A DNA stretch of 47,176 nucleotides, taken from the NCBI RefSeq assembly GCF_000336675.1, contig NZ_AOMB01000030.1, forward strand, positions 99,706 to 146,881, in the 5' to 3' direction. A model generated the notes under the pieces. It was given only the letters and a program-made list of their open reading frames with translations, made no database searches and was not told the origin of the DNA. The translations under genes were made by a program, and so were the position numbers. Numbering within the stretch: position 1 is the first letter of the stretch; the number at the start of each line of letters is the position of its first letter. This document shows positions 1,692 to 41,936 of the stretch, piece after piece. This DNA is from Halococcus hamelinensis 100A6. Its GTDB lineage: Archaea; Halobacteriota; Halobacteria; Halobacteriales; Halococcaceae.

Positions 1692-2969
1692 TTATTCGGG
1701 ATCCGGACTTGTGTCTTTTGTCCGGTCGGCGAGCGCCGCGAGTTCGTCGGCACGGTTAGCGATATCGTCCGGGGCGAGCGGTCCGTCCTCGGTGACGACG
1801 GTGACGGCGTCGGCCGGGGTGCGGTCGAAGGTCGGGTTCGCGACGTCGATCGCTTCCTCGCCGTCGTAGACCGCTTCGCGAGCCCCTTCCTCGAAGTCGG
1901 GATCGGCGTCGAGACCGATCTTGTCGCTCGACGTGACGGCGTAGACGGGGATCCCCTCGTGGGCGGCGGCGAGGGCGAGGCCGCGCGTCCCGACCTTGTT
2001 CACGACGCTTCCGTCCGGCAGGACCGCGTCCGCACCGACGAGCACACGGTCGATGGAGCGGGTCGCGAGGAGATGCGGGAGGGCCGCATCGACCGCGAGC
2101 GTCACCGAGCGGTCGGCGGCGAGCGCCTGGGCGACGCCGACCCCCTCGCGTGCGGGCCGTGACTCGCCGACGATCACCGGGACGTCCGTGGCCGCGCGGA
2201 GCGCGTCGAGCACGGTTCCCGACCGGGAGAGGGTGACCACGGTGCCGGAAAGCAGGGCGGCCGCCTCGCGCGCCGCCGCGGCATCCGCTTCGGACGCCCG
2301 TTCGATACCGTCGATGGCTGCTCGTTCGAGCGCTTCGGCCGTCCCGTCGGCGCTCGCCGCAGCCATCGCGCGGTTGACCCGGTTCCGGACGACCGCCATG
2401 CTCGGGCGCGCGGCGCGAAGCGCCTCTGCGAGCGCCACGAGGTCGTCCCACGCCGGTTCATCGTTCTGGTCGTCGTCTGCCGTGAGTCCGCCGGCGCGGT
2501 CCCGGAGGACGGCGAGGGCGCTGACCGAGAGCCACGCCGAGCCGTGGTCGGTGTCCGCCGCGACCGTTTCGACCGTGGGCGCAACGCGTTCGTAGGCCCG
2601 CTGGAGACCTGGGGCCGTCTCGCGCTTTCGGACCTGAGTCGGGGAGACCCACTCGGATTCGACGCCCTCGGCACCGAAATCGACGGCACGCGAATCGCAC
2701 TCGAACAGGAACGGGAACAGCACGCGAGAACCTTCCCGCCCGTCCTCGGCCGAGAACGGCTCGCCGGTTCGAACGAGCGAGTAGCCGTTCCCCGGCCCGA
2801 CCACCGACCGGACCGCGTTTCGTGCCTCCCGTTCGGGGTCGTCCGTGACGGTGTCCGAGACCCCATCCCACCGTCCGGGTTCCCCGTTCACCCCACGCGT
2901 CCGAATCAGCAGGACCTCGCCACGGTTTCGGAGGAAACAGACGGTGGAACGGTTGGTACGGGCCGACAT
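1692..2969 (-). CDS. Nudix-like domain fused to eIF2B-like (sugar-phosphate isomerase family) domain
   Basis: This 425-aa protein has two domains. The N-terminal ~140 residues resemble a Nudix fold, but the Nudix box is degenerate: the REUxEExGU part reads REARNAVRSVVG and lacks the paired catalytic glutamates. From about residue 150 it matches the eIF2B alpha/beta/delta-like family, which in archaea includes ribose-1,5-bisphosphate isomerase and methylthioribose-1-phosphate isomerase relatives. The family signature GADAVLPDGSVVNKVGT is intact. It may be a nucleotide- or sugar-phosphate-sensing or isomerising protein; the exact reaction is not known. An AGGAGG ribosome-binding site lies just upstream of the ATG, unlike the mostly leaderless neighbours. 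It is divergent from sdhA and convergent with the GH26 gene. Confidence 0.75.
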   Translation of the reverse strand: MSARTNRSTVCFLRNRGEVLLIRTRGVNGEPGRWDGVSDTVTDDPEREARNAVRSVVGPGNGYSLVRTGEPFSAEDGREGSRVLFPFLFECDSRAVDFGAEGVESEWVSPTQVRKRETAPGLQRAYERVAPTVETVAADTDHGSAWLSVSALAVLRDRAGGLTADDDQNDEPAWDDLVALAEALRAARPSMAVVRNRVNRAMAAASADGTAEALERAAIDGIERASEADAAAAREAAALLSGTVVTLSRSGTVLDALRAATDVPVIVGESRPAREGVGVAQALAADRSVTLAVDAALPHLLATRSIDRVLVGADAVLPDGSVVNKVGTRGLALAAAHEGIPVYAVTSSDKIGLDADPDFEEGAREAVYDGEEAIDVANPTFDRTPADAVTVVTEDGPLAPDDIANRADELAALADRTKDTSPDPE

Positions 2970-3136
2970 GGCTTTCCTCCTGGTTCGTGCACGGACGGGG
3001 TAAAACGGTCGGGTCGTGTCGGGACCGGTTCGGTTCCGGGATGGACGAGCGGTCGTCGGGAGGTCCCGGCGGGGTACCGGAACCCATGTCGTGCATGGAC
3101 AGCCTCAAGTCACGGTAGGTCCGACTACGAGCAAGG

Positions 3137-4987
3137 ATGTACGAACACGACGTCATCGTGGTCGGCGCGGGCGGGGCCGGCCTCCGGGCGGCGGTCGCGG
3201 CGGACGAGGAGGGTGCGGACGTCGCCCTCGTCTCGAAGCTCCACCCGGTGCGCTCGCACACCGGTGCGGCGGAGGGCGGGATCAACGCCGCGCTTCGGGA
3301 GGGCGATTCGTGGGAGTCCCACGCCCAGGACACGATGAAGGGCTCGGATTACCTCGGCGACGCGCCCGCCATCGAGACCCTGGTCCACCAGAGCCCGGAC
3401 GAGGTGATCCAGCTCGAACACTGGGGGATGGCCTTCTCGCGCGAGGACGACGGCCGGATGAGCCAGCGCCCGTTCGGCGGGCTCTCGTTCCCCCGGACGA
3501 CCTACGCCGGTGCCGAGACCGGCCACCACCTGCTCCACACGATGTACGAGCAGGTCGTGAAGCGAGGCATCACCGTCTACGACGAGTGGTACGTCTCGAA
3601 CCTCGCCGTCACCGACCACGACGACCCGGAGGAGCGCGAGTGTCACGGCGTCGTCGCCTACGACATTCAGAACGGGACCATCGACGCGTTCAAGGCCCGA
3701 AACGGGGTCATCCTCGCGACGGGCGGCCCGGGTCAGGTCTACGACCACACCACGAACGCCATCGCCAACACCGGCGACGGCCAGGCGATGGCCTACCGCG
3801 CGGGCGTCCCGCTCGAAGACATGGAGTTCGTCCAGTTCCACCCCACGACGCTCCCCTCGACCGGGGTGCTGATCACCGAAGGCGTCCGCGGCGAGGGTGG
3901 CATCCTCTATAACTCGGAGGGCGAGCGCTTCATGTTCGAGGGGGGCTACGCCAAGAACGTCGGCGAGCTCGCGAGCCGTGACGTGGTCGCACGGGCGGAG
4001 CTCGACGAGATCAACGCGGGCCGGGGCTTCGAGGACGACTACGTCCACCTCGACATGCGCCACCTCGGCGAGGAACGGATCACCGACCGGCTAGAGAACA
4101 TCATCCACCTCTCGGAGGACTTCGAGGGCGTGAATCCCCTGGAGGACCCGATGCGGGTCAAACCGGGCCAGCACTACGAGATGGGCGGCATCGAGGTCGA
4201 CGAGAACGGCGAGACCTGTATCTCGGGCCTCTACGCATCGGGAGAGTGCGCCTGTGTCTCGGTCCACGGCTCGAACAGACTCGGCGGGAACGCGCTACCC
4301 GAACTCATCATCTTCGGCGCGCGCGCGGGCCGTCACGCCGCCGGCAAGGAGATGAAGCCCGCGGAGATCCAGACCGGTCCCTCGGCGAGCATCGGTTCCG
4401 GCGAGGTCGACACGCCCGTCTCGCCGGGTGCGGTCGACACGGCCGACGACGACGTGGTGGCGGACGGTGGCACTGCCTCCGACGGCGGCGCGGTCGTCGG
4501 CATGGACGAGACCGTCGAGCACGCGCTCGAAACCGAGCGCGCCCGCATCGAGCGCCTGCTCGAGAAAGACGAGGGCGTCCAGCACGCCGAGGTCCGCACC
4601 GAACTCCAGAAGTCGATGACGGCGAACGTCAACGTCTTCCGGAACGAGGAGGGCCTGAAGCAGGCGCTCCGTGACATCCGACAGGCCCGCGAGGACTACG
4701 AGGACGTCTACGTCAACGACCCCTCGCGGACGTTCAACACCGACCTCCAGCACACCATCGAGACCCGAAACCTCATCGACCTCGCCGAGGCCATCACCCT
4801 CGGTGCGCTCGCCCGTACCGAGTTCCGCGGCGCGCACTGGCGTGAGGGCTACCAGGAGCGCGACGACGAGAACTGGATCAAACACACCATGCTCTCGTGG
4901 AACGAGGGCTCGCCGAACCTCTACTACGCACCGGTGATCCTCGAAGGCGAGGAGGGCGAGTACGAGCCGGTCGAACGACATTACTAG
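3137..4987 (+). CDS. sdhA: Succinate dehydrogenase/fumarate reductase flavoprotein subunit
   Basis: This 616-aa protein oxidises succinate to fumarate in the TCA cycle and passes electrons through FAD to the iron-sulfur subunit at the membrane. Visible features are the Rossmann motif VVGAGGAGLRAA (residues 8-19), the RSHTGAAEGGIN segment with the histidine (H41) that carries covalent FAD in this family, the QFHPTTL active-site segment, and the TEGVRGEGG segment with the substrate-site arginine. Around residues 410-460 there is a low-complexity acidic/Gly/Ala linker before the C-terminal helical domain. A TATA-like CCTCAAGT lies about 30 bases before the ATG. The sdhC, sdhD and sdhB genes are not in the window, so this gene stands alone here. 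Frd activity is an alternative reading. Confidence 0.93.
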   Translation: MYEHDVIVVGAGGAGLRAAVAADEEGADVALVSKLHPVRSHTGAAEGGINAALREGDSWESHAQDTMKGSDYLGDAPAIETLVHQSPDEVIQLEHWGMAFSREDDGRMSQRPFGGLSFPRTTYAGAETGHHLLHTMYEQVVKRGITVYDEWYVSNLAVTDHDDPEERECHGVVAYDIQNGTIDAFKARNGVILATGGPGQVYDHTTNAIANTGDGQAMAYRAGVPLEDMEFVQFHPTTLPSTGVLITEGVRGEGGILYNSEGERFMFEGGYAKNVGELASRDVVARAELDEINAGRGFEDDYVHLDMRHLGEERITDRLENIIHLSEDFEGVNPLEDPMRVKPGQHYEMGGIEVDENGETCISGLYASGECACVSVHGSNRLGGNALPELIIFGARAGRHAAGKEMKPAEIQTGPSASIGSGEVDTPVSPGAVDTADDDVVADGGTASDGGAVVGMDETVEHALETERARIERLLEKDEGVQHAEVRTELQKSMTANVNVFRNEEGLKQALRDIRQAREDYEDVYVNDPSRTFNTDLQHTIETRNLIDLAEAITLGALARTEFRGAHWREGYQERDDENWIKHTMLSWNEGSPNLYYAPVILEGEEGEYEPVERHY

Positions 4988-14727: not shown

Positions 14728-15939
14728 ATGAGTACACAGCTACACGCAAACCTCACCGAGGAGCAGGTACGGGAGATATCGAACCGACTCGACGAGCCCG
14801 AGTGGCTGCTACAGCAGCGCCTCGACGCGCTCGGCGCGCTCTCGGAGCTCGACATGCCGGACGTGATCCGGACGCCGGGTCGTAACTGGACCAACCTCTA
14901 CGACCTCGACTTCGAGTCGCTGGTCGACCCGCTGAACGCGGCCGAGGAGAAGGACCAGGTGGGCCCCGACGAGGTCGAGGTCATGTCGATCGCCGAGGCG
15001 CTCGACGACCACGAGGAGCTCGTTCGCGAGCACTTCGGCAGCGTCATCGACCCCCAGGAGAACTACCTCACGGCGCTCCAGACCGCGCTGTTCTCGACCG
15101 GAACGGTGGTCGTCGTCCCCGACGGCGTCGACGCCGAGGACATCACGGTGCGGACCCGGATGAACTCCCGGTCGCTGTTCAACTACACCCTCGTCGTTAC
15201 TGGAAAATCGAGTTCGGCGACGATCCTCGAACGCCAGACGACCGGTGACGAGGTGGACGGCGAGCGCTACTACTCCGGGCTGGTGGAGATCGCGGCGGGC
15301 GAGAACTCCAACGTCCAGTACGGCTCGCTCCAGAACCTCGACGAGACGAGCTACGACTACACACTGAAACGGGGTCACGCGGACACCAACGCCACGCTCA
15401 ACTGGATCGAGGGCAACGTCGGCTCGCGGCTCACGAAGTCCTCGGTCGAGACGCGACTGCTGGGGGAGGGCTCCGAGACCCACATCGTGGGTGCGTTCTT
15501 CGGCCACAACGACCAGCACTTCGACGTCGCCTCGCGGGTGTGGCACGAGGCCGAACACACGACCGCCGACCTCGTGACCCGCGGCGTGCTCGACGACCGC
15601 GCCCGGTCGGTCTACGAGGGCGTCCAGGACGTCGGCCGGGACGCGTGGAACACGAGTTCCTACCAGCGCGAGAACACCCTGATGCTGAGCGACGAATCGG
15701 AGGCCGACGCCTCGCCGAAGCTCATCATCAACAACCACGACACCGAGGCCTCCCACGCCGCGTCGGTGGGGCAGGTCGACGAACTCGACCTGTTCTACAT
15801 GACCTCGCGCGGGGTCTCGCCGCGGACGGCACGGAACATGCTCGTGGAGGGCTTCTTCGTGCCGGTGCTCGAGGAGATAGCGGTCGAGGAGTTCCGCGAC
15901 GACCTCTCGGAGCTCGTGGCGGCACGCCTTCGGGAGTAA
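14728..15939 (+). CDS. sufD: Fe-S cluster assembly protein SufD
   Basis: This 403-aa paralogue of SufB forms the SufB-SufD heterodimer on top of a SufC dimer. The C-terminal segment LIINNHDTEASHAASVGQ, followed by LDLFYMTSRGVSPRTARNMLVEGFF, is the SufB/SufD family signature. It lacks the SufB cysteine-rich segment, as expected for SufD. It begins 18 bases after sufB and closes the suf operon; the next gene has its own TATA-like element. Confidence 0.93.
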   Translation: MSTQLHANLTEEQVREISNRLDEPEWLLQQRLDALGALSELDMPDVIRTPGRNWTNLYDLDFESLVDPLNAAEEKDQVGPDEVEVMSIAEALDDHEELVREHFGSVIDPQENYLTALQTALFSTGTVVVVPDGVDAEDITVRTRMNSRSLFNYTLVVTGKSSSATILERQTTGDEVDGERYYSGLVEIAAGENSNVQYGSLQNLDETSYDYTLKRGHADTNATLNWIEGNVGSRLTKSSVETRLLGEGSETHIVGAFFGHNDQHFDVASRVWHEAEHTTADLVTRGVLDDRARSVYEGVQDVGRDAWNTSSYQRENTLMLSDESEADASPKLIINNHDTEASHAASVGQVDELDLFYMTSRGVSPRTARNMLVEGFFVPVLEEIAVEEFRDDLSELVAARLRE

Positions 15940-17147: not shown

Positions 17148-17220
17148 AGTCCCGTGGTGTAGTGGCCAATCATAACGGCCTTTGGAGCCGTTGACGGCAG
17201 TTCGAATCTGCCCGGGACTA
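17148..17220 (+). tRNA. tRNA-Gln (anticodon TTG)
   Basis: This 73-nt tRNA has a 7-bp acceptor stem AGTCCCG/CGGGACT with discriminator A, an anticodon stem AACGGC/GCCGTT around the loop CTTTGGA (anticodon TTG, reading CAA), and a T stem GGCAG/CTGCC around TTCGAAT. The CCA is not encoded and no intron is present. It marks the left edge of the virus-like element; tRNA genes are the common attachment sites of archaeal proviruses. Confidence 0.92.
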
Positions 17221-25133: not shown

Positions 25134-25655
25134 ATGACAGACGAAGACTTCGACATCTGCGGGAGCACCAACACCTCGACTGGTGAGCCCTGCCAGCGCC
25201 CCGCAGGCTGGGGGACCGACCGCGACTACGGACCATGCACCCAGCATCCGCGCGAAGGTCGCCCCTCGAAGTTTACAGACAGCCGCAAGGACCAGGCGAT
25301 CCAGCGAGCCCGGATAGGGGCCACACTCGAGGGCTGTGCTCGGGCCGCCGGGATCTCCTATCGCACCCTTCGAAACTGGCTCGATCGAGGTGAGGAAAGT
25401 GGCGAAGATGGCGACCCGTACTTTCAGTTTTTTCAGGCGTTCAATCGCGCGCGCGGTAGTGGCGAGGGGGACCTCCTGGAGCGCGTCAAAGAACAGAAAC
25501 CCGAGTTCATCCTGGAGCGCTCGTACGACTACACCAAGACCGAGGAACACGACGTCAACCTCGACGGTGACCTCGAGCACTCCTTCGACGCTACCGAAGG
25601 TGTGACGGCTGAGTTCGTGACCTTCGAGAACGAGGACGAAGACGACGATGAGTAG
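25134..25655 (+). CDS. terS: Terminase small subunit
   Basis: This 173-aa protein recognises virus DNA and recruits the large terminase. An N-terminal zinc-binding segment (CGSTNTSTGEPC, then CTQH) precedes a helix-turn-helix (ARIGATLEGCARAAGISYRTLRNWLDRGE). The C-terminal half is acidic (ENEDEDDDE). It sits directly upstream of the large subunit and overlaps it by 8 bases, the typical order in tailed viruses. The zinc module on a terminase small subunit is seen in haloarchaeal viruses. Confidence 0.75.
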   Translation: MTDEDFDICGSTNTSTGEPCQRPAGWGTDRDYGPCTQHPREGRPSKFTDSRKDQAIQRARIGATLEGCARAAGISYRTLRNWLDRGEESGEDGDPYFQFFQAFNRARGSGEGDLLERVKEQKPEFILERSYDYTKTEEHDVNLDGDLEHSFDATEGVTAEFVTFENEDEDDDE

Positions 25656-27015
25656 CGCACCGGCCCCCTCCCGTGAACCACTCCTCCCGAAACCTCGCTT
25701 CTCGATCTACGACAAACAGCAGGAAGTACTCGAATCGGACGCACGCCATCGGGTTCTCCGGTGGGGCCGACGAGCCGGTAAGAACATCGTCGCCGTCATC
25801 GACCTCGAGGAGCGTGGTCGTCACCCCTGGACCTACGAGTGGGGTTCCGACGATCCGGCGAATACGGTCATCTGGTGGGTCGGGCCGTCGTACAATCAGG
25901 CGAAGAAATACGGCTTCCAGCCCCTCAAATCGGCGCTCCCCGATAGCTGGATCGAGCGCGTCTCGAATACCGAACCGTTCGAAATCAAACTCACGAACGG
26001 CGTTCTCTACGAGTTCCGAACGTTCGACTACCCTGACACGCTTCAGGGTGCGGGCGTCGACCACATCGTCATCGACGAGGGCGACTACATGCCTGACTCG
26101 CTGTGGTACAACGACCTCGACCCGATGCTGATGGACTCGATGGGCTCGATGATGGCGATCTCGAAGCCTATCCGACCCCGATCGTGGTTCAACACCTTCT
26201 ACGAATACGGCCAGTCCGCCGACTACCCGGACTACTTCTCCTCGCACGCCACGAGCTCCGATAACCCGTTCATCGCCGAGAACCCCGAGGACAAGCGCGG
26301 TACGGTCCCCAACCACGTCTTCCGGCGTGAGTATCTGGCGCAGCTTCCGGACGACGGCGGCCAGGTGTTCAAGAAACTCGGCGACCGGCTGTTCACAGAG
26401 AGCTATCCGCTCAAGGGTGAGGTCGTCGAGGGGATCGGTGAGGTCTCGCGACCGGCTGCCGACTGCACCCCGCCGTTCTCGGTTGGCGTCGACTTCGCTC
26501 GCCATCGCGACTACCGCGTGACCACCGCTCTCGATGCCGAGGGCTACGTGGTCTACTTCTCTCGCGACCAGAACGAGGGCTGGGACACCATCCAATCGGA
26601 CATCGAGGCCGTCCACGCCAGCTATCCAGGGATCGTCGTCCCGGACGCCTCGCGGGACAACAAGATCATCCCCGACCTCGCGATGGAGGGCGTCACGCTG
26701 GAGCCGACGTCGTTCTCGCCGAAGACGAAGAAAGAGCTCATCGAGAACCTGATCACGCTGATCGAGACCGGCGAGATCACGGCCTCAAGCACGTCGGCGC
26801 TCGACCAGCTCCGCCTTGAACTCCGTCGGATGGAAAAAGAGGTCACGAACAACAGCTACACGCGGTACAACGCGCCGGACAACGGGCACGACGACTGTGT
26901 CGACTCGCTCGCACTGGCGGCGTCGAAGCTCGACGACATCCAACTCGCCGCCCGGCGTGGGTGGAACGAACCCGACGCCGCTGAGGACGACGATGGAGGA
27001 ATCAGCTATGCCTAA
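25648..27015 (+). CDS. terL: Terminase large subunit
   Basis: This 455-aa packaging motor has an ATPase and a nuclease. The Walker A-like GRRAGKN is at residues 40-46, with Asn where Ser/Thr is usual. The Walker B is IVIDEGD (D143/E144). The RNase-H-like nuclease has D282 in VGVDFARHRD, D333 in VPDASRD and late aspartates in GHDDCVDSLALA. It translocates DNA into the capsid through the portal and cuts concatemers. It overlaps terS and the next small gene. Confidence 0.9.
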   Translation: MSSAPAPSREPLLPKPRFSIYDKQQEVLESDARHRVLRWGRRAGKNIVAVIDLEERGRHPWTYEWGSDDPANTVIWWVGPSYNQAKKYGFQPLKSALPDSWIERVSNTEPFEIKLTNGVLYEFRTFDYPDTLQGAGVDHIVIDEGDYMPDSLWYNDLDPMLMDSMGSMMAISKPIRPRSWFNTFYEYGQSADYPDYFSSHATSSDNPFIAENPEDKRGTVPNHVFRREYLAQLPDDGGQVFKKLGDRLFTESYPLKGEVVEGIGEVSRPAADCTPPFSVGVDFARHRDYRVTTALDAEGYVVYFSRDQNEGWDTIQSDIEAVHASYPGIVVPDASRDNKIIPDLAMEGVTLEPTSFSPKTKKELIENLITLIETGEITASSTSALDQLRLELRRMEKEVTNNSYTRYNAPDNGHDDCVDSLALAASKLDDIQLAARRGWNEPDAAEDDDGGISYA

Positions 27016-35608: not shown

Positions 35609-36178
35609 ATGGCAATCGACGTAACCAGCAAGATCGAAGCGACGGCGAAGAAAGTATCAATCATCCTCGCGGAGTGGAACGAAACCGAGAGCGCCTACGA
35701 TCGGACGGTAGTCGGGCTCACGATGAAGGACGATCTCACCACCACGATTGACAACGAGGATACAGATTTCACGCCGGGAGACGAGTACCAGACCCGGCGC
35801 TACGACGTCTCGGGGACGATGGACCTCGAATTCTCGATGGCGATCGCGAAAGACCTCTCCGGACTCGAAGCACTCGGGATGGTCGACTCGGACGGCAAGA
35901 TGATCACCTCGGGCACGGAGAAGTGGATCGGGTTTGGCGAGGATCGCCACCTCGAATGGGCGTACTGGAGCGGTGAGCCCGACTACGAGAACGCCGACAT
36001 CGTGGCGGACTCGGAGATCCTAAATCGCTTTAGCGATGTGAAGCTCGTCGCGCCGGAGTTCGATCCCTCCGAATCCCCCTACTCGGTGTCGATGACTGGG
36101 TGGGTAGAGGGCGACTTTTACGTCAACTACCCAGGGTATGATGCGATCAACGGCACTGACGGAGGTACTGGCACATGA
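35609..36178 (+). CDS. Major tail tube protein
   Basis: This 189-aa, beta-rich protein fits the tail tube fold: early VTSKIEATAKKVSIILAEW, then SGTMDLEFSMAIAKDLSG, and a Gly/Thr-rich C-terminus (GTDGGTGT). It precedes the tail chaperone and tape measure, the usual order. No sheath gene follows, so the tail is probably non-contractile. An 85-base gap separates it from the preceding gene, while it overlaps the next by ATGA. Confidence 0.75.
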   Translation: MAIDVTSKIEATAKKVSIILAEWNETESAYDRTVVGLTMKDDLTTTIDNEDTDFTPGDEYQTRRYDVSGTMDLEFSMAIAKDLSGLEALGMVDSDGKMITSGTEKWIGFGEDRHLEWAYWSGEPDYENADIVADSEILNRFSDVKLVAPEFDPSESPYSVSMTGWVEGDFYVNYPGYDAINGTDGGTGT

Positions 36179-36753
36179 GCGACGCTGGTGTGAAGAACCC
36201 TGGCGTCGCGAACGAACTCCAGGACCAGCTCGATCAGCAGGTCGCGGACGAGGTGGCGACGATCGGAGCGCTCGACGAGACGCGAAAAGACCTCGAGGGA
36301 CGCGACCCGCCGCGTGACAACGCACCCGAAACCGCGGCCACGGACGGCGGCGAACTCGAAACCGTCGACGCCGACACCGCCGAGGTTGACGAGACAGCGG
36401 GCTACACCATGTCGGTCGACCGCCGCATCGGGAGCACCCATCTCGACGTCGAGTATCACGCACCCGGCGAAGAGGACGCTCGCGAGGCACGCCTACGGTT
36501 CGGGAAGCCGAACGGGCTCGCCAGTCGTGAACTGTTCGCGCCGATCGAGGAGGTCGAGGAGAGCGAAGGTCAGTCGGTCAACGAGATGACCGACTACATC
36601 TGGGGGACGCTCGCCGAGTGGTGTGCCGAGGAGCACGCCGACGGCGTCGACCAGTCACCCAGTGAGGCCGAGTTCTGGGCGACACGGATGGGGCTCGGCG
36701 ATGCGATCAGCGTTCTCCAGGACCTCGCCCTCGGCATCGACCCAAACGCGTAG
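36175..36753 (+). CDS. Tail assembly chaperone, short (gpG-like) form
   Basis: This 192-aa acidic protein precedes the tape measure, the position of the chaperone that coats it during tail assembly. A slippery heptamer C-CCA-AAC (36741-36747) sits two codons before the stop, and a -1 shift continues for 59 codons (see 36747). The C-terminus (WATRMGLGDAISVLQDLALG) is helical. It overlaps the tube gene by ATGA. Confidence 0.75.
   Translation: MSDAGVKNPGVANELQDQLDQQVADEVATIGALDETRKDLEGRDPPRDNAPETAATDGGELETVDADTAEVDETAGYTMSVDRRIGSTHLDVEYHAPGEEDAREARLRFGKPNGLASRELFAPIEEVEESEGQSVNEMTDYIWGTLAEWCAEEHADGVDQSPSEAEFWATRMGLGDAISVLQDLALGIDPNA
36741..36747 (+). other. -1 ribosomal frameshift slippery heptamer CCCAAAC
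   Basis: It reads C CCA AAC in the zero frame (codons 36742-36744 and 36745-36747), the X XXY YYZ pattern, followed by GCG and a TAG stop. After slipping to CCC AAA the frame continues CGC GTA GTC ACG TAC. A small inverted repeat GCGTA-N6-TACGC (36748-36763) follows directly, closer than usual stimulatory structures. Confidence 0.7.
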
Positions 36754-36926
36754 TCACGTACGCACAGTCCGACATCGGCCAGGCCCGCGGGGATCTTTAC
36801 GAGAAGGCAGGCGTCTCGGGCCCAACGGAGTTCGGGAAGCTCCCTGAACAGGACCGGATCTTCTGGAGCGCCTGGCAAGAAGAACGCCAGGAACGCCAAG
36901 AAGAGGAGATGCCGGACGAGAACTGA
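36747..36926 (+). CDS. Tail chaperone -1 frameshift extension (gpGT-like)
   Basis: The -1 frame after the heptamer encodes 59 residues with no start codon at its beginning: RVVTYAQSDIGQARGD, then YEKAGVSGPTEFGKLPEQDR, then a Glu/Gln/Arg-rich helix ending EEEMPDEN. Together with the 191-codon upstream part it makes a fusion of about 250 residues. In lambda-type phages the T region binds the tape measure and the G region binds the tube. It ends 57 bases before the tape measure gene. Confidence 0.7.
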   Translation, partial: RVVTYAQSDIGQARGDLYEKAGVSGPTEFGKLPEQDRIFWSAWQEERQERQEEEMPDEN

Positions 36927-36983: not shown

Positions 36984-39900
36984 ATGGCATTATTCGACAA
37001 CTTAGAGTCATCTCTCAAACTCGACGCGAGTGACTACGTTCGCGAGGCCGACAAGGCCGAGCGGGCGAGCAAGGACGTCGCCGACGCGACCGAATCGATG
37101 GGCGACGCGGCGGGTAATTCTGCCGGCGGTGCCGACCGAGCGAAGCAAGCCGTCGGAGGTTTGGCGGCCGGTGCATCGGCACTCGCGGCGGGTGGTCTCG
37201 CGAAGTCCATCCAGGCGGCGACGAGCTTCGAGTCGTCGATGGCCGACGTCGAGAAGGTCACCAGCAAGGGTATCGCCGAGAAGCTGAAGGGGAATTTCCA
37301 GTCGCTTGCCGAGGAGATCCCGATCTCCCAGCAAGAGCTCGCCACGCTGGGCGAGCAGGCTGGGAAGTTCGGTGTCAAGGGCGCAAAGAACATCACGAAA
37401 TTCGTCGAGACGGTCGGCCAGATCTCCTCGGCGACCGATCTCGCGGCTGGCGAGGCCGGGACTCGATTTGCGAAGATCGCTGGCGCGATCGGATTGCCGA
37501 TGGGCCAGATCGGCAAGCTCGGCAACGCGACCAACTCGCTCGCGGACTCGATGAAGACGGACGCAGGCGAGATCACAGACACCGCAAACCGCGCGGGGAT
37601 CACGCTCTCGAAGCGCCTGGGGCTCTCGAAACAGTCGGTCCTCGGATTGTCGGCCTCGATGAATGAGGTGTCCCCGAGCGCCCAGCTCGCGGCCTCAGGA
37701 CTCAAACAGGCTGCCGAGGCACTCCTCGATCCGAAAAAGGTCGGGAAGATCGCCTCGGCGCTGGGGATGACGAAAAGCGAGTTCATCCAACTTCGCGATC
37801 AGAGCCCGCAGAAAGCGTTCGATCTCGTCTCGAAGGCGATGGCGAAGGGTGGCGACCGCGCCACCGCGCTCGCCAAAGCAGTTGGAAAGCGCCCTACGCG
37901 GGCGTTCTCGGCGCTCGGCCAACAGGTCGGCCGAACTCACCAAGCGATGAAGACGGCCAGCGGGCAGTTCAAGAACGGGACGTCGCTCGCCCGCGAGATG
38001 TCGATCCGGACCGGGACGGCTGCCGGGAAGTGGCAACTGTTTAAGAACAAACTCCAGAACGTCGCGATCACGACCGGCGACGCCCTCCTTCCGGTGTTGC
38101 TGCGGGTTCTCGACCCGATCTCGAACGCGATCAGTCTGTTCGGCGAGTGGAATTCGAAGCTCGGCGGCATCCCGGCGGTGGTCGCGCTCGTCGCGACGGC
38201 GATCGGCGGGCTGGCGGTCGCGGCAGGAGTGTTCATCGGCCCGCTGACGACTGGTGTCACGATGATGGGAGCGCTTGCCGGGGCGGCCTCGGCGCTGCTC
38301 TCACCGCTCGCGCTCATCGGAACCGCCCTCGGAGCGCTCCTCTCTCCGATCGGGATCGTTATCGCTGGCGTGGCGGCGCTCGGCGCGGCGTTCGCGACCG
38401 ACTTCGGAGGGATCCGCACGATGGCGATGCAGCTCGTCGGCATCCTCCGAGGTCAGTTTCTCACGATCTGGACGCAGCTGAAGGCCACTATCCTCCCGAT
38501 ACTCTCACAGATCGCAGCGGCGTGGGACGGCCAGGGCTCGCGCGTCCAGTCCGTCGCGTCGACTCTTATCGAGAATATCGGCGGGAGGCTCGTCCCGATC
38601 ATCCTCCGATTCGGGGCGATGGCTCGTCGCGCGATCGCGTCGGTGGCCTCTTTTTGGAATACACACGGGTCGACGATCCTCTCGATCGTCCGGCTCCTTT
38701 CGACGAACCTCTCGGAGATGCTGATTCAGGCGATGGCGGCCGTTTCGTCGGCTCTTCAGGGCGACTTCGTCCAGATGCGAGGGGCGTTTCAGGAGTTCAA
38801 AACGGCCGCACTGAACATCTGGAACGCGATCTGGCCCCGCTTGAAACAGGCGGCGATGGCCGGTCTGCGGATGGCCTGGAACTGGGTGAAGGGGCCGGGC
38901 GTCTCGCTGGCGAAGCAGGCACTATCTTTCCTCGCCACCGCGGCCGTCGCGGCGTTCAACTTCGGGAAACAGCATATCCTCCCGGCCGTTCAGTCGGCGC
39001 TGCGCTTTGCCTGGAACTGGGTGAAAGGACCAGGCGTTCAGCTCGCGAAGCAAGCCCTCTCGCTGCTGGCGAGGGGTGCGGTAGCGGCCTTCAAGTTTGG
39101 AAAGCAGAACTTGCTTCCCGTCGTTCAGCGAGCGATCCGCTTCGCTTGGAACTGGGTCAAAACGTCAGGGGTTTCGCTCGCAAAGCAAGCCCTCGCGTTC
39201 CTAGGCCGCCAGGCTATTGCGGCGTTCACCTTCGCGAAAGAGAACATCCTCCCGAAGGTACAGACAGCGCTCACCGCCGCGTGGACTTGGCTCCGTACGT
39301 CGGGCGTCCAGCTCGGCCGTCAGGCACTCACGTTCCTCGGAAACCAGGCGATAGCCGCCTTCACGTTCGCGAAAAACAAGATCGTCCCGAAGGTCTCGAA
39401 GGCGCTCGGTGCGGCATGGACGTGGCTACGAACGACAGGCCTCCAGAAGGGCAAGCAAGCCCTCATATTCCTCGGAAATCAGACGATAGCGGCGTTCTCG
39501 TTTGCGAAGAAGAAGATAGTTCCGAAGGTTTCGAAGGCGATCGGGGCCGGATGGCAGTGGCTTCGGACTAAAGGACTACAGAAGGGCAAACAAGCGCTGA
39601 TTTTCCTCGGAAATCAGGCCATCAACGCGTTCACGTTCGCGAAAAACAAGATCGTCCCGAAAGTATCCGGGGCGATCGGTGCGGCATGGACCTGGCTCAG
39701 AACGACAGGTCTCCAGAAAGGTAAGCAAGCGCTCGGATTCCTCGCAAACCAAGCCGTCAACGCCTTCGACCTCGGCAGTGGTGGCGGTTCCGGCGGTGGT
39801 GGCGGTGGCGGTCTACAAGGCAAAGCCGCCTCGGCGCTCTCGGGCGTCGGAGCGTGGCTTCGGAATCAGGGCGTCTCGATCCTGAGAGGTGCGCTCTCGT

Positions 39901-41936
39901 TCCTCGTCACGCAGGGAGCGAACGCGCTCTCGGCGCTCCAGCAGGCCGGCCGCCGTGTCGTCTCGCAGGCCATCGCCGCGATCTCGACGTACCTCCGAAC
40001 GCAGGCTACGACGGACGTCAAAAACGCGTTCAAGGCGATCGGCCGCGGGATTAGGGCCGTTCTGGTCGGTCTGTTCAACGTCGGAAAGGGGATCGGGAGG
40101 ATCGTCAGGCAGGGGATCGGCGCGATCGTCTCCTACCTCCGAAATCAGGCATGGTCCGATCTCAAGGGAGCTGCCGAATTCCTGTTCGGCGCAGCAGTCA
40201 CGGCCGCGAAGGGACTGTTCGCTCTCGGAAAAGGGATCGGACAAGCGATACGGACCGGTATGGGGGCGATTTTCAGTTACCTCCGAAATCAGGCATGGTC
40301 AGACCTGAAAGGGGCTGCCGAATTCCTGTTCGGTGCCGCGAAGGTCGCTGCCGAGGCTCTGTTCAACGTCGGAAAAGGGATCGGAGGGGTCATCAAGGAC
40401 TTCATGGGGGCGATCGTCTCCTACCTCCGAACCCAAGCGTGGTCTGACCTGAAGGGGGCAGCGGAGTTCCTGTTCGATGCAGTGATGGCCGCCGCAGAGG
40501 GCCTCTACCAGGGCCTCATCGGGAATTCACTCATCCCCGAGATGTTCGGGGAGATCGCCTCGTTCATCCGGAACTTCAACCTGTTCGCACCGGTCGACGC
40601 GCTGCTCTCGTCGGCCTGGCAACGGTTTGATAAATTCAAAACGGACGCCTTCAACACCGTTTCGAACCTGCTCGGCGAGGTCGTCACGGCGATCCAGAGC
40701 TGGTCGCTGCTCCAGAAGGTCAACTCGGCGCTGAAATCCGTCTGGCTACGATTTGACAAGTTCAAAACGGATGCTGTCAACACGATCAAGCAGACCGTAT
40801 CGGACATCCTGAGCGCTGTCTCGCCGAGGAACCTGAAAAGCAAGCTCAAGTCGAAGATCGGCGGCGCTCTCGATGGGGCGAAAGAGAAGTTCAAATCGCT
40901 CTACAACGACGTTGTCGGGAACTCGATCGTGCCAGATATGGCGAGCGATGTGGTCGGCGTCATGGACAAGATGGACATGGCTGGTCCGGCGGGCCGCGAG
41001 ATGGGACGTGCGTTCGACCAGTTCGCCTGGTTGCAGACGAACGCGAAAAAGCGTACGGACAAGCTCAATCGCGAGACGCTGAACAACATCAAGGCGATGG
41101 CGTCGGCGACGTCCTCGCGAGCGAAGTCCTGGGTCGGATCGTTCGTGAAGCCCTTCGGGCAGGCAAAAGACCGCGTCTCGGGGCTGTTCTCCGACTTGCA
41201 TCACATGGTGGTCGGGGGCTCGATCATCCCCGATATGCTCTCGGATCTGGTCGCCGAGTCGAAGGGCTCCTGGGCAAAGCAGTTCGTGAGCCCGTTCGTC
41301 TCCGCTGCGGATCAGGTGGCCGATCGCCTCGGAAGGCTTCGAAAGCAGGCAGCCCGAGCAGCGAAGGACACCGCGAAGCAGGCGAAGAAGGCCGCCGCTG
41401 CGGCCTCGGGCGGTGGTGGTGGCAGTAACGTCCGGAAGCGAGCCGAATGGGCTGGCGAGCGCTACAAAACAGTGCGGAAGGGCCGCCTCGCCGGCATCCC
41501 GAAGCCGCTCGCGAAGCAGATGCGAGACGTCTACAAGAACCAGGTCAAGGGCAAGCGTTCGTGGGCCTCGTACGTCAAGCGAGCGCGGAACTACGGCGAG
41601 AACGCCCGCGGCAAGAAGGGTGTTTGGTACGAGGACACCGCCGTCGCGAAGATGGCGTCCAGTGGGACAGTGCTCTCCGACGGCCTCATCTACGCCCACA
41701 AGGGTGAGGACGTCGTCCCGGCGAAGACCAGCCAGCCGTACTCCGGCGGTAGTAGAAACTCGAAGAAAGAGGTTCACTACCACCAGGAGAAGACGATCCT
41801 CAAACTCGACGCCGAGGAGACGCGGAAGTTCATGCGTGGCGAGGCGGTCGACGTCGTCGACGAGAAAGAGTCCGAGAAGTCGGAGAGTCTGAACAACGCG
41901 AATACGGACAGCACCGACGACGTTTCGCTGTTCTAA
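36984..41936 (+). CDS. Tape measure protein
   Basis: This 1650-aa protein sets tail length and is coated by the chaperone. The N-terminal region has typical helical sequence (ASDYVREADKAERASKDVAD, then GLAAGASALAAGG and a conserved MNEVSPSAQLAASGLKQA region). Hydrophobic helices lie at about 390-480. The central part has seven 45-residue tandem repeats from residue 629 and four 48-residue repeats from about residue 998. The late motif NSIVPDM recurs (LIPEM, IVPDM, IIPDM). At about 0.15 nm per residue, the known ratio for such proteins, the tail would be near 250 nm. A C-terminal basic domain follows a Gly linker. Confidence 0.92.
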   Translation: MALFDNLESSLKLDASDYVREADKAERASKDVADATESMGDAAGNSAGGADRAKQAVGGLAAGASALAAGGLAKSIQAATSFESSMADVEKVTSKGIAEKLKGNFQSLAEEIPISQQELATLGEQAGKFGVKGAKNITKFVETVGQISSATDLAAGEAGTRFAKIAGAIGLPMGQIGKLGNATNSLADSMKTDAGEITDTANRAGITLSKRLGLSKQSVLGLSASMNEVSPSAQLAASGLKQAAEALLDPKKVGKIASALGMTKSEFIQLRDQSPQKAFDLVSKAMAKGGDRATALAKAVGKRPTRAFSALGQQVGRTHQAMKTASGQFKNGTSLAREMSIRTGTAAGKWQLFKNKLQNVAITTGDALLPVLLRVLDPISNAISLFGEWNSKLGGIPAVVALVATAIGGLAVAAGVFIGPLTTGVTMMGALAGAASALLSPLALIGTALGALLSPIGIVIAGVAALGAAFATDFGGIRTMAMQLVGILRGQFLTIWTQLKATILPILSQIAAAWDGQGSRVQSVASTLIENIGGRLVPIILRFGAMARRAIASVASFWNTHGSTILSIVRLLSTNLSEMLIQAMAAVSSALQGDFVQMRGAFQEFKTAALNIWNAIWPRLKQAAMAGLRMAWNWVKGPGVSLAKQALSFLATAAVAAFNFGKQHILPAVQSALRFAWNWVKGPGVQLAKQALSLLARGAVAAFKFGKQNLLPVVQRAIRFAWNWVKTSGVSLAKQALAFLGRQAIAAFTFAKENILPKVQTALTAAWTWLRTSGVQLGRQALTFLGNQAIAAFTFAKNKIVPKVSKALGAAWTWLRTTGLQKGKQALIFLGNQTIAAFSFAKKKIVPKVSKAIGAGWQWLRTKGLQKGKQALIFLGNQAINAFTFAKNKIVPKVSGAIGAAWTWLRTTGLQKGKQALGFLANQAVNAFDLGSGGGSGGGGGGGLQGKAASALSGVGAWLRNQGVSILRGALSFLVTQGANALSALQQAGRRVVSQAIAAISTYLRTQATTDVKNAFKAIGRGIRAVLVGLFNVGKGIGRIVRQGIGAIVSYLRNQAWSDLKGAAEFLFGAAVTAAKGLFALGKGIGQAIRTGMGAIFSYLRNQAWSDLKGAAEFLFGAAKVAAEALFNVGKGIGGVIKDFMGAIVSYLRTQAWSDLKGAAEFLFDAVMAAAEGLYQGLIGNSLIPEMFGEIASFIRNFNLFAPVDALLSSAWQRFDKFKTDAFNTVSNLLGEVVTAIQSWSLLQKVNSALKSVWLRFDKFKTDAVNTIKQTVSDILSAVSPRNLKSKLKSKIGGALDGAKEKFKSLYNDVVGNSIVPDMASDVVGVMDKMDMAGPAGREMGRAFDQFAWLQTNAKKRTDKLNRETLNNIKAMASATSSRAKSWVGSFVKPFGQAKDRVSGLFSDLHHMVVGGSIIPDMLSDLVAESKGSWAKQFVSPFVSAADQVADRLGRLRKQAARAAKDTAKQAKKAAAAASGGGGGSNVRKRAEWAGERYKTVRKGRLAGIPKPLAKQMRDVYKNQVKGKRSWASYVKRARNYGENARGKKGVWYEDTAVAKMASSGTVLSDGLIYAHKGEDVVPAKTSQPYSGGSRNSKKEVHYHQEKTILKLDAEETRKFMRGEAVDVVDEKESEKSESLNNANTDSTDDVSLF
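38868..39777 (+). repeat. 45-residue tandem repeats in the tape measure (about 135 bp each)
   Basis: Seven copies with period 135 bases, the last one diverging at its end. Each has the core WxWxxxxGxxxxKQALxFL followed by AFxFxKxxIxPxVxxAx. Early copies read WNWVKGPGV, later ones WTWLRTTGLQKG. The later copies are more alike than the early ones, which suggests recent local duplication. Confidence 0.75.
39975..40550 (+). repeat. 48-residue tandem repeats in the tape measure (about 144 bp each)
   Basis: Four copies with period 144 bases (starts near 39975, 40119, 40263, 40407). Core: SYLRxQAWSDLKGAAEFLF, then GLFxxGKGIG. The first copy is the most diverged. This is a different repeat from the 45-residue set just upstream. 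Confidence 0.7.

Follow-up and report, generated by a model that had tools for sequence, protein, structure and literature searches.

Reviews describe a G-T frameshift in the tail modules of the haloarchaeal siphoviruses HCTV-1, HCTV-2, HCTV-5 and HVTV-1 (PMC5009743, PMC8211752), and a -1 frameshift at G_GGA_AAT has been reported for Hardycor1 (HrrHc1_110/115; PMC7911831). Shifting in the opposite direction, +1, was described for HSTV-2 (PMC5009743) and, with the motif TTT-CGC, for the HF1 group (PMC7230728). In the literature cited here, these viral archaeal cases rest on sequence. According to a 2021 review, -1 frameshifting has been shown experimentally in archaea for one cellular gene, from Saccharolobus (PMC8211752), which agrees with the remark in the original prediction for the present DNA that direct evidence for programmed frameshifting in archaea is scarce. 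That prediction placed a programmed -1 frameshift at C-CCA-AAC in the tail chaperone of an archaeal virus. We have analysed the stretch concerned, a window of 47,176 nucleotides from Halococcus hamelinensis 100A6, together with related haloarchaeal tail modules. By its relatives in class-level searches and by its composition, the draft genome to which the window belongs is haloarchaeal.

Two overlapping frames ahead of the tape measure gene

The head and tail gene order in the window is complete and runs from a TerL-like ORF (25648-27015, named from gene order alone) through portal, MuF, S78-type protease, capsid and adaptor to tail completion, tail protein, G, T and tape measure. The major tail (tube) protein (35609..36178, + strand, 189 aa), whose name rests on its position in the gene order, has no Pfam match and is 40-45% identical to its counterparts in haloarchaeal viruses and proviruses, including HJTV-4 and Halorubrum tailed virus DL. 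Between it and the tape measure gene (36984..41936, + strand, 1650 aa; phrog_28, E 1.5e-51; PF10145, E 1.6e-12) lie two overlapping ORFs, the G-like upstream chaperone ORF (36175..36753, + strand, 192 aa) and a -1 frame that is open from 36666 to a TGA at 36924-36926, the overlap amounting to 28 codons. The order tail protein-G-T-tape measure reproduces the lambda G/GT layout, as had been proposed. A tRNA-Gln (TTG) gene at 17148-17220 separates the viral region from cellular-looking genes, among which is a SufD-like ORF (14728-15939) named by eye; this tRNA gene is a possible integration site.

Near the end of G, the codons GAC CCA AAC GCG TAG place the heptamer C_CCA_AAC (36741..36747, + strand) in the X XXY YYZ register, exactly as first read; the distance to the stop had been given as two codons, and is in fact the single codon GCG before the TAG at 36751. 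CCCAAAC is the sole in-frame X_XXY_YYZ (Y = A/T) in the 28-codon overlap and in the 16 structural coding sequences of the window (6016 codons), so it is its place that is non-random, though the word itself is not rare. Such a heptamer would turn up in a particular set of ten codon pairs with a chance of about 0.009 for random codons and about 0.10 with the protein sequence fixed. Word rarity was dropped as evidence, CCCAAAC being found once in the window compared with about 2.8 expected. Among the structural genes, CCA codons are uncommon, at 5.3 per thousand. Genes for tRNA-Asn(GUU), tRNA-Pro(UGG) and an intron-containing tRNA-Pro(CGG) are present in the assembly, and no tRNA-Pro(GGG) was seen in this draft. 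C_CCA_AAG has been described as highly shift-prone in E. coli (PMC5009743); C_CCA_AAC is not among the sites reported for archaeal viruses in the reviews and papers cited here.

Downstream of the heptamer, the -1 frame (36747..36926, + strand) adds 59 codons and a TGA, and its translation beginning RVVTYAQ is RVVTYAQSDIGQARGDLYEKAGVSGPTEFGKLPEQDRIFWSAWQEERQERQEEEMPDEN (59 residues). It ends 57 nt ahead of the tape measure ATG at 36984, and thus shortly before that gene, as anticipated. The clean haloarchaeal composition ascribed to this frame is likewise found, the GC content per codon position being 0.71/0.41/0.76 in the extension and 0.74/0.44/0.82 in the upstream gene. Its open length was discarded as evidence, since in a window this rich in GC at least 59 open codons follow 49% of positions; base composition by itself is likewise insufficient. 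The second frame has no independent start: there is no ATG, GTG or TTG between 36666 and 36908, and the first, at 36909, stands five codons from the end. A predicted model of T shows a small helical domain (mean pLDDT 83.5).

The model of G is uncertain (pTM 0.46), and a PDB fold search with it returned nothing at E below 0.8. G has no Pfam or PHROG match; against the G proteins of relatives, an HMM comparison was not significant (E 1.7) and hhalign gave a weak match over the first 41 residues (P 0.003). The grounds for its putative identity as a chaperone are its position and the T domain attached to it.

Out-of-frame T domains and candidate shift modes in relatives

Relatives were gathered via the tail protein, via the tape measure and later via the T domain. 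When a profile built from the T domains of 14 relatives, with the window left out, was compared with the 1010 six-frame segments of the window, the -1 frame came out on top (E 6.9e-12; next segment E 0.71), in accordance with the expectation that this frame would be conserved, and 20000 shuffles of the extension reached at best 15 bits, compared with 42 bits for the real sequence. T is out of register with the upstream ORF in all of the roughly 30 loci that were resolved; a conserved second-frame domain is held out of frame, and separate genes with their own starts, the arrangement that would speak against frameshifting, were not found. Conservation of the heptamer sequence, also envisaged in the original prediction, was not observed: relatives carry A_AAA_AAG, G_GGA_AAZ or T_TTT_TTN instead, and some shift by +1. 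For C_CCA_AAC itself, no close relative with an intact junction was found. When viral contigs were searched for sequences closely related to G or the tape measure, the same-strain contig was the only match, and a search with G of 391 genomes gave mostly weak matches (E above 5e-5) apart from a decayed copy in the same genus. This decayed provirus (G250 C3; L003 / L064) retains the end of the tail protein and the first part of G, followed by unrelated DNA.

In L070, L072, L073 and L074, G ends in A_AAA_AAG-TAG and reading resumes in the -1 frame with an extension that starts VAQSPIGQ.., compared with YAQSDIGQ.. in the window; their -1 sequence VAQSPIGQEIGE...EQRWW.FWYRKQ visibly resembles YAQSDIGQARGD...EQDRIFWSAWQEE of the window. 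As the frames overlap by just 3 codons in L070, L072 and L074, and these contain A_AAA_AAG, the shift in these loci is pinned to the heptamer. Most substitutions among these relatives affect the third codon position, in the 0 frame upstream and in the -1 frame downstream. An in-frame X_XXY_YYZ was located within the overlap in 25 of 29 -1-type loci, compared with about 1 expected; the 29 make up two T groups, window included, and are not 29 independent cases, some being closely related. This set leaves out L082 (frame choice), L090, L098, L051, L053 and L055 (neighbouring gene unresolved) and L158 (upstream ORF not found). L045 (G375 C1) has a T-like -1 frame ahead of the tape measure gene and no in-frame X_XXY_YYZ. 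In L048 (G134 C1, oriented 2788-3893), G_GGA_AAC abuts a TAA and is followed by 220 more -1 codons; this extension, far longer than the others, resembles a further chaperone-like protein whose end is T-like.

Within the T family of the window, the frame would be changed in three modes. One is a -1 shift at X_XXA_AAZ, represented by C_CCA_AAC in the window, A_AAA_AAG in L070, L072-L074 and L160, and G_GGA_AAC in L088. Another -1 group carries T_TTT at a fixed place, 24-27 codons ahead of the G stop, as T_TTT_TTG or T_TTT_TTC in L069, L071, L076 (HJTV-4), L080, L157, L159, L161 and L162, and followed by ACC or ATG in L077, L083 and L155. T_TTT is conserved in this long two-frame overlap, though TTT is rare in the structural genes of the window, and it is probably the -1 site of the group, apparently unannotated in HJTV-4. 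The third mode is a +1 shift, with exactly one TTT codon per overlap, followed by CGC or CTC (L068, L075, L100, L144, L154 and L156); L144 belongs to the same genus as the window. These loci carry the TTT-CGC motif, proposed for the HF1-group haloviruses, into other tail modules. Outside this family, a remoter group, whose tape measure is related and whose T frames resemble one another, has G_GGA_AAZ (L042-L044, L046-L050, L052 and L054).

In the T tree, which is short and weak elsewhere, the -1 locus L088 clusters with five +1 members (support 91/94), and on this basis the direction of the shift has likely changed within the T family. The occurrence of three modes inside one haloarchaeal T family may be novel. 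We hold with reasonable confidence that the joined G-T product is conserved in haloarchaeal tail modules whereas the route to it varies among these modes, that the direction was swapped at least once in one family, and that the window adds C_CCA_AAC, apparently stimulator-free, to the known routes. Between L068 and L069, L071 and L076, the tail proteins are 71-78% identical, whereas identity is 26-30% in G and 13-21% in the T domain, which also stands in the other frame; this pattern suggests that G-T was swapped by recombination beside a conserved tail protein.

Frameshift model and alternative explanations

On the basis of the T profile, the out-of-frame T of the relatives and the heptamers placed in their overlaps, the locus, part of a provirus of the haloarchaeal siphovirus type, very probably encodes a lambda G/GT-like tail-assembly chaperone produced through -1 frameshifting. 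Together with the startless T, these observations support the originally proposed event at C-CCA-AAC. The majority of ribosomes would translate 36175-36753 into the short protein G. We infer that a minority would slip one base back on C_CCA_AAC, tRNA-Pro exchanging CCA for CCC and tRNA-Asn AAC for AAA, which would keep pairing at the first two positions of both codons and turn the third into a mismatch. The slipped ribosomes would then read the 59 -1 codons, giving a G-T fusion of about 250 aa (191 + 59) with the junction ...GIDPN-RVVTYAQSDIGQ... and the predicted junction peptides ...LGIDPNR and VVTYAQSDIGQAR. By analogy with lambda, G would form a coat on the tape measure protein, the tail tube protein would be recruited by the T domain, and the slip frequency would set the ratio of G to G-T.

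The original prediction had pointed to a 5-bp inverted repeat immediately after the heptamer as the only nearby structure. The repeat is present (GCGUA/UACGC, 36748..36763, + strand), and it probably does not stimulate slipping. In a 31-nt piece, the stem folds with z -1.98, longer pieces show no excess over shuffles, and overall no fold after the heptamer convincingly beats shuffled sequences (z +1.0 to -2.0; pseudoknots are outside the model). Since the stem begins at the base right after the heptamer, with zero spacer, and longer folds do not exceed shuffles, a classical stem-loop stimulator 5-9 nt past the heptamer is unsupported within this pseudoknot-free model. Heptamer and stop codon are contiguous (distance 0) in 8 loci among the relatives. 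Because work on HIV shows that the codon 3' of a slippery site can affect slipping (PMC4373837), the stop in those relatives may by analogy contribute; in the window, unlike in these loci, GCG stands between heptamer and stop.

A change of frame within the overlap but away from CCCAAAC, either at another -1 site or by transcriptional slippage, would suit the -1 frame being open from 36666, so that a slip anywhere in the 28 codons fits, and would parallel the T_TTT group, which appears to shift 23-27 codons ahead of the stop. Yet the overlap in the window contains no T_TTT and no other in-frame X_XXY_YYZ, and polymerase slippage would usually call for longer runs than the three C and the three A of CCCAAAC; we regard such a displaced event as very unlikely. 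Production of T as a small protein of its own, through a non-standard start or re-initiation past the TAG, is slightly less probable still. The T frame does contain ACG and ATC codons, and the annotation of Hardycor1 gives the downstream part a CDS and a start of its own, but the frame in the window lacks any ATG, GTG or TTG before 36909; moreover, re-initiation needs no slip site, whereas an in-frame heptamer or TTT_C is found in the overlap of nearly every relative.

The frame break might also be an assembly error, or a disabling indel that split a once-fused gene as the provirus decayed, and the G250 provirus from the same genus is clearly decayed at this point. We consider this the least probable account, since the break lies at the same place in all resolved relatives, including the isolated viruses HJTV-4 and Hardycor1, and no close relative with a single fused ORF was found. 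In addition, the morphogenesis genes around the G/T locus are intact in length, and an IMG/VR contig, though probably of the same strain, has the same upstream ORF and tape measure. The preferred reading is a -1 slip at C_CCA_AAC.

Relation to described systems

The haloarchaeal siphoviruses HCTV-1, HCTV-2, HCTV-5 and HVTV-1, set beside the window by their descriptions in reviews rather than by sequence, differ from it in that the window is a provirus with C_CCA_AAC. Hardycor1 resembles it in its tape measure (37% identical), in the G_GGA_AAT near the end of G and in a T in the -1 frame, but has other G and T sequences, and its heptamer stands 5 codons ahead of the stop. Halorubrum tailed virus DL/DL1 and HJTV-4 share with the window a homologous tail protein (41-42%) and a homologous T in the -1 frame, whereas T_TTT, their candidate site, stands about 27 codons ahead of the stop; in their records, T is not annotated within a joined gene. 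The HF1 group and HSTV-2 correspond in gene position, and TTT-CGC or TTT-CTC recurs in six relatives of the window T, but their shift is +1, not -1.

The locus and its relatives offer a small collection of sites for comparison, some of them confined to overlaps of 3-6 codons, which is ready for haloarchaeal reporters and bears on archaeal shifting without downstream structure and on the replacement of -1 by +1 before the same domain. With lambda gpG/gpGT, the window has in common a short chaperone, a -1 slip near its end, a T extension and then the tape measure; this likeness is one of layout, without Pfam or PHROG hits, and the functions we infer from it. The window is thus a well-supported further example of a known viral device, and the mechanism is not new.
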